From NCBI GenBank assembly GCA_038881635.1, contig JAVZPJ010000004.1:93824-157823 (forward strand): a stretch of 64,000 bases of DNA, read 5' to 3'. The translations under genes and the position numbers were made by a program. Under the pieces are notes generated by a model. It was not told where the DNA came from, made no database searches, and saw nothing but the letters and a program-made list of their open reading frames with translations. This document shows positions 45,580 through 54,400 of this stretch, piece after piece. The stretch comes from Sulfolobales archaeon. GTDB lineage: Archaea; Thermoproteota; Thermoprotei_A; Sulfolobales; AG1. Every line of letters begins with the position of its first letter. Positions within the stretch are counted from its first letter, which is position 1.

Positions 45580-46563
45580 ATGGTATTATGCGATATATGT
45601 AGAACTCGTGAGGCATCGATACTTCAGAGACATAGTGGTTTGAAGCTCTGTAGAGAATGCTTTCTAAGAGATATAGAATTTAGAGTTGTGAAAGAGATTA
45701 AGAAGTATAACATGATCTCTGAGAGAGACAGAGTTTTGCTAGCTCTCTCAGGAGGTAAAGATAGTTTTGTCCTTCTAGATATTCTATCTAGAAATCATGA
45801 TCCCTCGAAGTTGGGAGGAGTCACGATTATTGAAGGTATAAAAGGATATAATAGAGAAGAAGATCTAGAGAGATTAAAGATCTTAGCTAGAGAGAGAGGA
45901 GTTGAGCTGAATATTGTAAGAGTTAAAGATCTAGCAGGATATACCGTGGATGAGCTTGTAATAGGATCTAGAGAGAAAGGTTTGAAAATATCTCCATGCA
46001 CCTTCTGCGGACTCTATAGAAGAAGAGGAATTAATACCGTAGCCAGAGAACTAGGATATGATAAGGTAGCCACAGCTCATAATCTCGATGACGAGGTTCA
46101 GACTCTCATCATTAATATTCTCAGAGGTGATGAGATCAGAATAGTATCTATTCATCCTATGAGGAGAAATCCCTCAGATCTCTTCATACCGAGAGTGAAA
46201 CCCTTGAGAAAGATCTATGAGTATGAAACAGCATTATACGCTTTCATCAGAGGATACAAGCCTCAGGAGATTGAATGCCCGTATATATCTCACATGCCTT
46301 CATTAAGAGCTAGAATCAGAGAGATCTTATATAAACTCGAAGAAGAGAAACCTGGCATACTTCTTAAAATGCTGGAAGAATTCGATGAACTCTACACTAG
46401 AAGAGTTATGGAGTCTCATATTAGACTTGACACGTGCAAGATATGTGGAGAACCTACTAATCCTGGAAGGAGTATCTGTAAATCCTGCGAGCTTCTAATA
46501 AGATCAGGTTTTCTCGAGAATAAGAGAAGTATTTCAACTACTTCAATTCTTGTGAAGAAATAG
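45580..46563 (+). CDS. tRNA 2-thiolation protein, TtuA/NcsA (Ctu1) family
   Basis: A 327-residue PP-loop protein with all parts of the TtuA/NcsA/Ctu1 group. It has an N-terminal zinc finger (CDIC and CREC), LALSGGKDSFVLL near 53, ISPCTFCGLYRRRG with catalytic/cluster cysteines, ECPYISHMP with the third cysteine, and a C-terminal zinc finger (CKIC and CKSC). It adenylates a uridine of tRNA and inserts sulphur. Whether position 34 or 54 is modified cannot be told. A degenerate paralogue is encoded at 53228-54169. Confidence 0.9.
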   Translation: MVLCDICRTREASILQRHSGLKLCRECFLRDIEFRVVKEIKKYNMISERDRVLLALSGGKDSFVLLDILSRNHDPSKLGGVTIIEGIKGYNREEDLERLKILARERGVELNIVRVKDLAGYTVDELVIGSREKGLKISPCTFCGLYRRRGINTVARELGYDKVATAHNLDDEVQTLIINILRGDEIRIVSIHPMRRNPSDLFIPRVKPLRKIYEYETALYAFIRGYKPQEIECPYISHMPSLRARIREILYKLEEEKPGILLKMLEEFDELYTRRVMESHIRLDTCKICGEPTNPGRSICKSCELLIRSGFLENKRSISTTSILVKK

Positions 46564-51949: not shown

Positions 51950-53113
51950 GTGGCTGATGAGGGGGAGAGAGTAGAGGAGTTCAAGGTAACACCTTGGGAG
52001 GTTAAAGGTAGAGTAGATTATAGGAGGCTTATAGAGATCTTTGGTACACAGCCTATCACAGAAGATCTAATAGAAAGGCTGAAGAAGGTATCTAATGAGG
52101 AGCTCCACCTATTTCTCAGAAGAGGTGTTTTCTTCTCTCACAGAGACTTCGATAAAGTTCTTGATGATATCGAGAGTGGTAAAGGCTTCTTTCTATACAC
52201 AGGGAGAGGTCCTTCAGGTCCTATGCATATAGGGCATCTAATACCATTTATAATGACGCAATGGCTTCAGAAGATCTTCAGAGTTAATGTGTATATAATG
52301 ATAACAGATGACGAGAAGTTTCTTCATGAGGAGAGTATGGAGCTTAATGACGTTAGGAGATGGGCTTATGAGAATATTCTTGACATAATAGCGGTAGGGT
52401 TTGATCCTGAGAGGACTTTTATCTTCCAAGACACGGAGTATATCAGAAACATGTATCCAATGGCTCTCAAGATAGCTAAGAAGATAAACTTTAACCTGGC
52501 GAGATCGGTATTCGGTTTTGATACAAGTACCAATGTAGGACTTCTATTCTACCCTGCACTACAGATAGTGCCAACATTCTTTGAGAAGAGAAGATGTCTG
52601 ATACCTGCTGCAATAGATCAGGATCCTTACTGGAGAATCCAGAGAGATCTAGCGGAGAGAATGGGGTACTATAAAGCAGCTGCAATACACTCTAAATTCC
52701 TTCCTCCACTCACAGGTTTCGAAGGTAAGATGAGTTCTTCTAAACCCGAGACAGCTATATATCTTCATGATGATCCTAAGACTGTTAGATATAAGATCAT
52801 GAGATACGCATTCTCAGGAGGACAGCCTACTATAGAACTTCACAGAAAACTAGGAGGTAATCCTGATATAGATGTGTCATTTCAATGGCTTTACATGTAT
52901 TTCGAGAATGATGATAGGGAGATAAGAAGAATAGAAGAAGAATATAGATCCGGTAGACTTCTAACAGGTGAACTGAAGGAGATTCTGGTGGAGAGGATAA
53001 ATGAATTTCTAGAGAAGCATAGAGAGAAGAGGGAGAAAGCTAGAGAACTAGTTCACGTGTTCAAATACGAGGGCAGGCTAGCTAGAGAGATGTGGGAGAG
53101 GGTGTTAGAGTAG
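51950..53113 (+). CDS. trpS: Tryptophanyl-tRNA synthetase
   Basis: A 387-residue archaeal/eukaryotic-type TrpRS. The HIGH motif is GPSGPMHIGHL near residue 86, and KMSSS appears as GKMSSSKPETAIYL near 262. The N-terminal region before the HIGH motif is the archaeal extension. It charges tRNA-Trp, whose gene is also in this window at 37729. The GTG start follows GGGTTGAT. A box C/D RNA lies about 40 bases downstream. Confidence 0.95.
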   Translation: MADEGERVEEFKVTPWEVKGRVDYRRLIEIFGTQPITEDLIERLKKVSNEELHLFLRRGVFFSHRDFDKVLDDIESGKGFFLYTGRGPSGPMHIGHLIPFIMTQWLQKIFRVNVYIMITDDEKFLHEESMELNDVRRWAYENILDIIAVGFDPERTFIFQDTEYIRNMYPMALKIAKKINFNLARSVFGFDTSTNVGLLFYPALQIVPTFFEKRRCLIPAAIDQDPYWRIQRDLAERMGYYKAAAIHSKFLPPLTGFEGKMSSSKPETAIYLHDDPKTVRYKIMRYAFSGGQPTIELHRKLGGNPDIDVSFQWLYMYFENDDREIRRIEEEYRSGRLLTGELKEILVERINEFLEKHREKREKARELVHVFKYEGRLAREMWERVLE

Positions 53114-53150: not shown

Positions 53151-53209
53151 ATGGGATGATGAGCGACTTCGGTCTGGAAATGTGAAGAGCCGTGTGAGGT
53201 CTGACTCAA
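53151..53209 (+). ncRNA. Box C/D guide sRNA
   Basis: Box C ATGATGA at 53156-53162 is followed by an 11-base guide GCGACTTCGGT, box D' CTGG at 53174-53177 (one mismatch), box C' GTGAAGA at 53182-53188 (one mismatch), a 12-base guide GCCGTGTGAGGT, and box D CTGA at 53201-53204. A TATA-like CTTAATTTAATAAT at 53118-53131 is about 25 bases before the RNA start. The RNA sits between trpS and the degenerate thiolase-like gene and ends some 20 bases before the latter. By the box-plus-five rule the targets would read ACCGA* and ACCTC*. Confidence 0.82.
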
Positions 53210-53227: not shown

Positions 53228-54169
53228 TTGGATCAGATTCTATGTAGCAGATGTGGTTTTAGAAAAGCTATATATCTAGATAGATCCTCAGGACATAGGA
53301 TGTGCGGGGTATGCCTCTATAGAGATGTTGAGAGTAAGATTAGAGAGGTTATATCGAGATATGCTAGAGATCTGAGAAACTCTTATGCGGCATACATAGA
53401 TTTCTTTCAACCTGTTCCTTGGAATGGTCTTGTGATAAGGATTCTAGCTAGGATCTTAGGTAGAGCTGGTAATAGACTTATAGTGCTTCTATACCCATGG
53501 TATTCAGATTGTGTAGATATTTTTCGCAGTATTGCTGGAGATGTAGATCTTATAATCTTAGGTAAAACCTATGTTGAAGAGGTTCTCAGAATATGCTCAG
53601 ATCTAGGCGAATCCATTGATTTCTACGCGTGTATTCTCAAACATCAGATGCTACTAGGACTTTCTCTTAGAAGTAGAGGATTTAATGTTGAAAAGATCTT
53701 CATAGCAAGACCTCGAGAATTCTCTGTAGATCTAGCTTTAAAAGTTTTAACAGGCTACAATAGAGAGATACTTTCTGAGGTGTATAATGATAGAACTATA
53801 GAAGGTCTTCACATAGTAAACATACTTGATAGAGTCTCCGAGTCAAGTCTAATATCATTAGCTCTCAGAGATAGAGATCTTGAGAACTGCTATGAGAAGA
53901 CATTCATAGAATATGTTAGCCAGATGCCTGAGAAGGTGAGAGGAGTCTTATTTAGAGAGAATACTGTGATATCTATGTTTAAAGAGATCTTCTACACATC
54001 TTACGAGTACATGTATACATTCCCTGAATCTATGAAGAGATACTATTCATTATACTCCTATAGATGCAGGATCTGTAGTGCACCATTATCAGATAGCGAT
54101 CAGAATCTCTGCAGATACTGTCTAAGACTGACTTCTGCTCTTAAGGATTTCTCTCAGATTTTTAGATAG
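53228..54169 (+). CDS. PP-loop-less paralogue of the TtuA/NcsA tRNA thiolase
   Basis: A 313-residue protein built like the thiolase at 45580: an N-terminal zinc finger (CSRC at 6-9, CGVC at 26-29 with the shared SGHRMC context) and a C-terminal zinc finger (CRIC 280-283, CRYC 295-298). The PP-loop SGGKDS is replaced by a PWYSD stretch near 90-94, and the C-x2-C active-site motif is lost. NCYEKTFIEYVSQMPEKVR aligns with the ECPY...MP region of the active form but with no matching catalytic cysteine. It may be a non-catalytic partner, like eukaryotic Ctu2/Ncs2 for Ctu1/Ncs6. The TTG start follows GGGGAT. Confidence 0.75.
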   Translation: MDQILCSRCGFRKAIYLDRSSGHRMCGVCLYRDVESKIREVISRYARDLRNSYAAYIDFFQPVPWNGLVIRILARILGRAGNRLIVLLYPWYSDCVDIFRSIAGDVDLIILGKTYVEEVLRICSDLGESIDFYACILKHQMLLGLSLRSRGFNVEKIFIARPREFSVDLALKVLTGYNREILSEVYNDRTIEGLHIVNILDRVSESSLISLALRDRDLENCYEKTFIEYVSQMPEKVRGVLFRENTVISMFKEIFYTSYEYMYTFPESMKRYYSLYSYRCRICSAPLSDSDQNLCRYCLRLTSALKDFSQIFR

Positions 54170-54400
54170 ATTAAAACATCCTTCACCTCTCTCAATAAGA
54201 CCTAGTCTGATGAGTTTTCCTATAATCTGCTCAGGATCTTCTATTTTATAGAGTAGTCTAAGCTCTTTAATAGCTACTATCTCGCCTACAGATAGATTTC
54301 TGAGAAAGTATTCTAGGACTTCTAATTCGTTTTTCGAGAGATCTTTTGGTATGTGATCTTTAACTAGATCTATGAGATTTCTCCTAGGTCTATACATCAT
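54122..54400 (-). CDS. Small winged-helix protein
   Basis: A 92-residue protein predicted as a winged helix: LSKNELEVLEYFLRN, then EIVAIKELRLLYKIEDPEQII and a LIRLGLIERGEGCFNLS wing. This resembles a DNA-binding or ribonucleoprotein-binding domain. It is divergent from moaA, and its 3' end overlaps that of the degenerate thiolase-like gene by 48 bases. Composition and the divergent arrangement support it as real, though no family is named. Confidence 0.55.
   Translation of the reverse strand: MMYRPRRNLIDLVKDHIPKDLSKNELEVLEYFLRNLSVGEIVAIKELRLLYKIEDPEQIIGKLIRLGLIERGEGCFNLSKNLREILKSRSQS

Follow-up and report, generated by a model that had tools for sequence, protein, structure and literature searches.

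Why does an archaeon keep a thiolase-like protein from which the catalytic apparatus is missing? The question is raised by a gene in the window (the whole 64,000-nucleotide stretch of Sulfolobales archaeon DNA that was analyzed), which lies on the plus strand at 53228..54169, starts with TTG and codes for a 313 aa NcsA/TtuA-like protein that we term dead. Its N-terminal C4 zinc finger (C6, C9, C26 and C29; 53243..53314, plus strand) and its C-terminal C4 zinc finger (C280, C283, C295 and C298; 54065..54121, plus strand) flank a central region in which the place of the PP-loop, directly after a strand at residues 53-57, is taken by DFFQPVPW instead of SGGKDS (53399..53422, plus strand), as judged from the secondary structure of the model and the alignment. 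The alignment further places Glu260 (54005..54007, plus strand) at the site of the invariant Gly in the (H/R/K)PG motif of the active enzymes. On reading the sequence, neither SGGKDS nor the [4Fe-4S] cysteines (CxxC plus the C of CP(Y/F)) are present, and a Pfam scan that returned seven families at E<=10 gave no PP-loop match.

The window also codes for an active member of the same NcsA/TtuA family, an NcsA-like thiolase of 327 aa (45580..46563, plus strand) that belongs to the clade designated A1 below and is the proposed catalytic partner of the dead protein. It matches PF01171 and TtuA_LIM_N, aligns with MmNcsA (6scy) at E 3.8e-44 and is the sole PF01171 protein of the source genome (1.405 Mb, 18 contigs, 97% complete). 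Its SGGKDS PP-loop occupies residues 57-62 (45748..45765, plus strand). By homology to MmNcsA, the cysteines C140 and C143 (C140-x2-C143; 45997..46008, plus strand), invariant in 21 of 21 A1 rows, and C233 (46276-46278, plus strand) are the predicted three ligands of the [4Fe-4S] cluster, the ligands in MmNcsA being Cys142/145/233 according to the available part of PMC10067955. The source genome further encodes one ThiF/E1-type protein, which a sulfur-carrier route would need. As a side observation on these A1 enzymes, the one at locus L158 in an Acidilobus-like genome (G046) has SGGKDG where SGGKDS is expected.

Direct comparison of the two window proteins by BLASTP recovers the N-terminal finger only (42 aa, E 1e-6) and a weak match at the C-terminal finger. 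This short similarity is more than chance, since a profile-profile comparison with hhalign of 44 dead homologs (alignment A6) against 18 active enzymes (alignment A7) spans 276 columns with a probability of 99.9 and an E of 1.1e-34, with three stretches falling into line, namely the strand and loop that precede SGGKDS, the region of HNLDDE and that of the (H/R/K)PG motif. The first-pass annotation had held that the protein shares both fingers and its overall layout with the 45580 protein and has lost the SGGKDS PP-loop and the catalytic cysteine motifs; the fingers at C6-C29 and C280-C298, the full-length profile match and the reading of the sequence bear this out.

The predicted structures point the same way, and both AlphaFold models were made from nine dead sequences with no active sequence among them. 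For the window protein (pLDDT 65.7, pTM 0.66), the top 17 PDB rows from Foldseek are all TtuA/NcsA (best E 2.4e-9), and VIA-align places NcsA 6scy_B first (Z 14.1, rmsd 4.4, 229 residues), with TilS level with this match at Z 13.6. The model of an Ignisphaera homolog (L053; pLDDT 84.0, pTM 0.84) separates these families more clearly: TtuA/NcsA fill the first 17 Foldseek rows and the nine best VIA-align entries (Z 17.1-18.7, 247-260 residues), led by TtuA 5mkp (Z 18.7, rmsd 3.4, 254 residues) and including NcsA 6scy_B at Z 17.1; TilS comes next at Z 12.4-15.4, and other PP-loop enzymes reach Z <=9.7. The values of Z 8-10 for LarE, NadE and GMP synthetase reflect the wider PP-loop fold and not closer kinship. 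The central region, for which lack of similarity to the PP-loop fold had been named in advance as the outcome that would overturn the assignment, thus models as NcsA/TtuA, with best Z values of 14.1 and 18.7 for the two proteins. Sequence profiles and models together identify the window protein as an inactivated NcsA/TtuA paralog with a PP-loop (HUP) fold and both zinc fingers. An unrelated zinc-finger protein was also considered and is ruled out by the fold matches and the full-length profile homology. With NcsA, the archaeal U34 tRNA thiolase (PDB 6scy), the dead protein shares the fold, the layout, the zinc fingers and homology along the full profile, and with TtuA, the m5U54 thiolase (PDB 5mkp, 5gha, 3vrh), the fold; it differs from both in having neither SGGKDS nor the cluster cysteines, and in carrying a Glu where they have the glycine of (H/R/K)PG.

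These losses extend across the family. A catalytic-type PP-loop motif (.GG.D[ST]) occurs in none of the 44 aligned members of A6 and in none of 48 loci scored later; a looser search of A6 for.GG.D hits one of the 44 (L110) through the letters GGGDY at another place in its sequence, which we read as a chance match. A central CxxC is present in one aligned member (L092), which is likewise without a PP-loop. The N-terminal finger is complete in 42 of the 44 and the C-terminal finger is kept in 30 and lost in 14, and Glu260 is found in all 44, though it is not universal, as a member read later (G201) has no Glu there. Homologs are 11-32% identical to the window protein. By NG86, dN/dS is below 1 in all six pairs compared (e.g., G029/G074, with dN 0.135 and dS 1.18), and values range from about 0.08 to 0.67, the last being a YN00 estimate for one pair. 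The sequences thus point to an old family, evolving fast and under purifying selection. A decaying pseudogene or an annotation artifact, of which the rapid evolution and one frameshifted copy (G061) might be signs, is refuted by the dN/dS values and the conservation of the fingers and Glu260, and the gene is intact in 60 of 61 well-completed carriers, so that we give this explanation practically no weight. The frameshift itself (L188; contig C1 588500-590500 of G061) splits the dead gene in a single-contig genome and is either an error or a recent loss.

To map the family, profile A6 was searched against 229 genomes of the window's class, 122 of which make up a well-completed set (>=90% complete, <=5% contamination). 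A first cut at E <~1e-35 was used, the actives within the class reaching about 6e-31 at best, and two members falling below it were added after their sequences were read (G031 at 3.8e-35 and G201 at 6.9e-33). Sequences were read individually because this cut is valid inside the class only; outside, actives reach 4e-46. The dead gene is intact in 60 of the 122 well-completed genomes, with one further copy, that of G061, frameshifted; reading of all 60 intact sequences revealed no PP-loop, and for 48 loci, one from each of 48 genomes, the dead profile gave a better fit than the active one in every case. By family tag, the gene is present in every well-completed member of f1 (4/4), f2 (11/11), f3 (10/10), f4 (2/2), f8 (4/4), f10 (2/2), f12, f13 and f14 (1/1 each), and in f5 it is intact in 24 of 25, the frameshifted copy making up the remainder. 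It is absent from the well-completed members of f6 (0/3), f7 (0/6), f9 (0/23), f15 (0/1) and f11 (0/28), the last of which we take to be the Sulfolobaceae; other families and genera in the set presumably include Desulfurococcaceae, Pyrodictiaceae, Acidilobaceae, Ignicoccaceae and Aeropyrum. Beyond the class, none was found in the genomes searched: among 398 genomes, all 20 high-scoring matches that were fetched have SGGKDS and are active. A scan of GTDB r220 with A4, which rested on two short peptide patterns and was of limited sensitivity, gave 33 loci, eight of them dead, from Ignisphaera and from Desulfurococcales or Thermoproteota MAGs, and 25 active, including all seven Asgard loci; the Bathyarchaeota relatives retrieved likewise have SGGKDS.

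The active TIGR00269 thiolase is found in all 118 genomes of the order that are at least 90% complete (192 of 197 overall). Phylogenies of the active enzymes resolve three clades, namely A1 (to which the 45580 protein belongs), A2 and B; in the tree of 73 rows, the SH-aLRT is 100 for A1, for B and for the dead family, and 99 for A2. Against the NCBIfam models, A1 scores nearer NcsA (169-187 bits) than TtuA (108-149), A2 nearer TtuA (212-215) than NcsA (192-200), and B nearer TtuA (223-258) than NcsA (120-126), and no A1, A2 or B protein reaches the curated cut-off for either. On the 229 genomes, carriers separate well from the remainder with both the A1 profile (E<1e-115, all others 5.7e-87 or weaker) and the A2 profile (E<1e-120, all others 1.9e-87 or weaker); profiles A8 and A9, the latter of three rows, were built from a portion of the genomes that they later classified. 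All 60 well-completed genomes with an intact dead gene also encode an active thiolase, so the co-occurrence with an active form that the first-pass annotation proposed to check by phylogenetic profiling is indeed seen, and the occurrence in genomes devoid of the active paralog, which that annotation named as a refuting outcome, is not observed among them. Among 40 dead-gene genomes that were typed, A1 is the sole active type in 14 (in G001 as two copies on separate contigs), a second active paralog is present in 25 and only B in one (G187).

The dead gene follows one active clade in particular. Outside f11, 59 well-completed genomes carry A1, and the dead gene is intact in 58 and frameshifted in one; the 29 well-completed A2 carriers (23 in f9 and six in f7) have it in no case, and in f7 it is missing from all 12 A2 carriers of any completeness. 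In these A2-dominated families, the typable odd members that do have the dead gene carry A1 (G181 in f9, and G081 and G099 in f7). Of the genomes with neither A1 nor A2, the dead gene is present in G187 (90% complete, with only B found) and G200 (99%, with two other actives), and absent from three f6 genomes, which have a divergent A1-like enzyme, and from G203. There are two counter-cases among less complete f7 genomes, namely G093 (76% complete), in which A1 is present and the dead gene was not found, and G087 (78% complete), in which the dead gene is present and B is the only active found. Fisher tests of the A1-dead association give 0.046 within f7, 0.025 within f9 and 0.009 combined, and were framed after seeing the data; the association is largely at the level of families, the p values obtained inside families are modest, and shared descent inflates the figure for the order as a whole. 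Moreover, the well-completed A1 carriers of f11 lack the dead gene in 28 of 28 cases, and hence A1 need not be obligately paired. Two further observations concern A2: in G163 (f2, 70% complete), A2 is present and the dead gene was not found, and the occurrence in an f2 genome of this A2-type thiolase (L215), which is 64% identical to a Pyrodictiaceae-like one, suggests acquisition through transfer; in G111 (f7), there are two A2-type thiolases, on contigs C1 at 279408 and C2 at 21305.

In the window the dead gene lies 6.7 kb from the A1 gene, in agreement with the roughly 7 kb of the first-pass annotation, but as evidence for a link this proximity means little, because in other genomes, such as G029, A1 and the dead gene are hundreds of kb apart; an operon joining the two was sought next to A1 and not found. 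In 30 of 48 loci a thermosome gene is no more than three genes away from the dead gene, as part of a conserved thermosome/RpoK/topoisomerase/RNR neighborhood that is not kept in f1, the window's own family, which has moved out of this thermosome-side synteny. A functional meaning of the neighborhood was considered and rejected, as it looks like old housekeeping synteny not conserved in f1; this old synteny near the thermosome gene and the c2 family (below) does argue for vertical descent of the dead gene in most families.

These data can be read in more than one way. We lean, with modest confidence, toward the dead protein being a Ctu2-like non-catalytic subunit of the A1 tRNA 2-thiolation enzyme that probably evolved independently. 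This reading rests on the fold, the catalytic loss and the distribution; the pairing, the role on tRNA and the target position are what we infer. The ancestor would have been an NcsA/TtuA-type thiolase that lost ATP and [4Fe-4S] binding while keeping its overall fold and zinc fingers. Its descendant most likely pairs with the clade-A1 enzyme encoded at 45580-46563 and may help to hold or orient the tRNA, with A1 adenylating the uridine and transferring the sulfur, a mode of working like that of Ctu2/Ncs2 with Ctu1/Ncs6 that probably arose on its own in the window's class. The sole ground for favoring U34 as the target is that the scores of A1 are closer to NcsA than to TtuA.

A less probable but still weighty competitor is a neofunctionalized paralog, working by itself or with some other partner, that lost catalysis and kept the fold for binding, for instance as a zinc-finger protein that binds RNA, as a factor that docks the ubiquitin-like sulfur carrier or as a tRNA/rRNA chaperone. 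The extreme divergence of the family (11-32% identity to the window protein), the disappearance of the C-terminal finger in 14 of 44 members and the location of the gene in the thermosome/RpoK/topoisomerase neighborhood and not beside A1 would all fit such a role, as would the A1 of Sulfolobaceae, which manages without the dead protein, and G200, where the dead gene accompanies non-A1 actives; yet with an unrelated function one would not expect the gene to co-segregate with A1 and to be absent where A2 is found, and the whole thiolase fold has been retained. It is improbable, in turn, that the dead protein is a regulatory or inhibitory subunit, forming heterodimers that tune or cap A1 in response to temperature or sulfur and are not needed for catalysis: the same genomic evidence that favors the Ctu2-like subunit applies to it, and A1 does occur without the dead gene in the 28 f11 genomes, but nearly every well-completed A1 carrier outside f11 retains the dead gene (intact in 58 of 59, frameshifted in the other), which suggests an important role. 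Extending the Ctu2-like reading to the whole class, we propose more tentatively, as a scenario falling somewhat short of an even chance, that an asymmetric thiolase of live A1 and dead partner evolved independently of eukaryotes, that the replacement of A1 by A2 in two families was accompanied by disappearance of the partner, and that the choice of catalytic subunit sets whether the enzyme is heteromeric or homomeric.

Eukaryotic Ctu2 likewise has a dead PP-loop. Like Ctu2/Ncs2, the dead protein is a diverged thiolase paralog alongside an active one, without the [4Fe-4S] cysteines and with zinc fingers retained. This likeness in outline anatomy (dead PP-loop, no Fe-S cysteines, zinc fingers), the Ctu2 side of which is given in the portion of PMC10067955 at hand as absence of the [4Fe-4S] cysteines with the zinc fingers kept, is what speaks for a true ortholog of Ctu2/Ncs2 inherited from an archaeal ancestor. 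Against such orthology, which we consider very improbable, the CTU2 model PF10288 is not one of the seven Pfam families that the window protein hits at E<=10 and is absent from the best 25 of 77 families for the 44 dead members; the Asgard and Bathyarchaeota relatives retrieved all have SGGKDS, and the 20 matches fetched outside the class are all active. Unlike the eukaryotic Ctu2/Ncs2, the dead family is archaeal, restricted to one class and has often lost its C-terminal finger. Ctu2 also has two extra poorly ordered regions (alpha4-alpha5 and alpha12-alpha13), whereas the window protein is of about active-enzyme length (313 aa, the active paralog having 327 aa) and, judging from this length, has no long insertion; and while Ctu2 forms a heterodimer with Ctu1/Ncs6 and U34 thiolation depends on it, the pairing of the dead protein with A1 is a proposal by analogy. 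In the trees, the dead family forms one clade on a long branch, and a single clade uniting it with A1, at 2.7 log units above the free search, is not rejected (AU p 0.53), so that the dead family may stem from a duplication close to the A1 root. With no evident link of descent to Ctu2 and the Asgard relatives found all active, a parallel that arose separately in archaea is a likelier reading than an ancestor of eukaryotic Ctu2. The first-pass annotation's Ctu2-like inactive partner therefore survives as an inactivated NcsA/TtuA paralog that co-segregates with A1; the bearing on the origin of the eukaryotic complex that it foresaw is not supported, given the missing PF10288 match, the class-restricted family and seven of seven Asgard relatives active.

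Published accounts, in the parts of PMC10067955 (2023) and PMC12645042 (2025) available, describe archaeal thiolases as single or homodimeric proteins and the two-protein form as eukaryotic, and PMC10067955 reports that homodimeric MmNcsA is active. In the open-access literature, we found no title or abstract start naming a dead archaeal NcsA partner. Many heat-loving archaea nevertheless carry a dead thiolase copy that tends to travel with one live clade, A1, and they may have a live/dead enzyme pair as eukaryotic cells do, where published accounts describe a single protein. If true, the step from homodimer to heterodimer would have happened more than once. Hetero-oligomeric tRNA enzymes derived from duplicated homomers include ADAT2/ADAT3, the A58 methyltransferase and the Sen nuclease (PMC10067955, in the part available); these follow the same logic, with one subunit catalyzing and the other binding, in different enzyme families. 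A widespread dead paralog tied to A1 would also supply small, probably heat-stable proteins for biochemistry that has been blocked by the insolubility of recombinant Ctu2, noted in the same part of PMC10067955. The pairing view predicts a stable complex of A1 and the dead protein from Aeropyrum or Ignisphaera.

Two neighbor families without a Pfam family recur beside the dead gene. The c2 family (e.g., L053:8282-9124 and L105:4800-5618) is a zinc-ribbon protein of ~270 aa that lies at most three genes away in 29 of 48 loci, and c7 (L053:9102-9470) is a protein of ~120 aa adjoining the dead gene in 13 of 48 loci, with one base between the two frames in L053. In the window itself, the 3' end of the dead gene overlaps, tail to tail, the gene for PolB1-binding-protein-2 (92 aa; 54122-54400, minus strand), and upstream, just over 100 bases away, lies a TrpRS/TyrRS-type synthetase gene (51950-53113). 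Between this TrpRS gene and the dead gene, 53152-53207 on the plus strand is likely a C/D-box sRNA; its best Rfam matches, all under the gathering scores, are sR5 (29.2 bits, E 2.1e-5) and sR41 (23.2 bits), with the latter of which it has GAAGAGCC in common.
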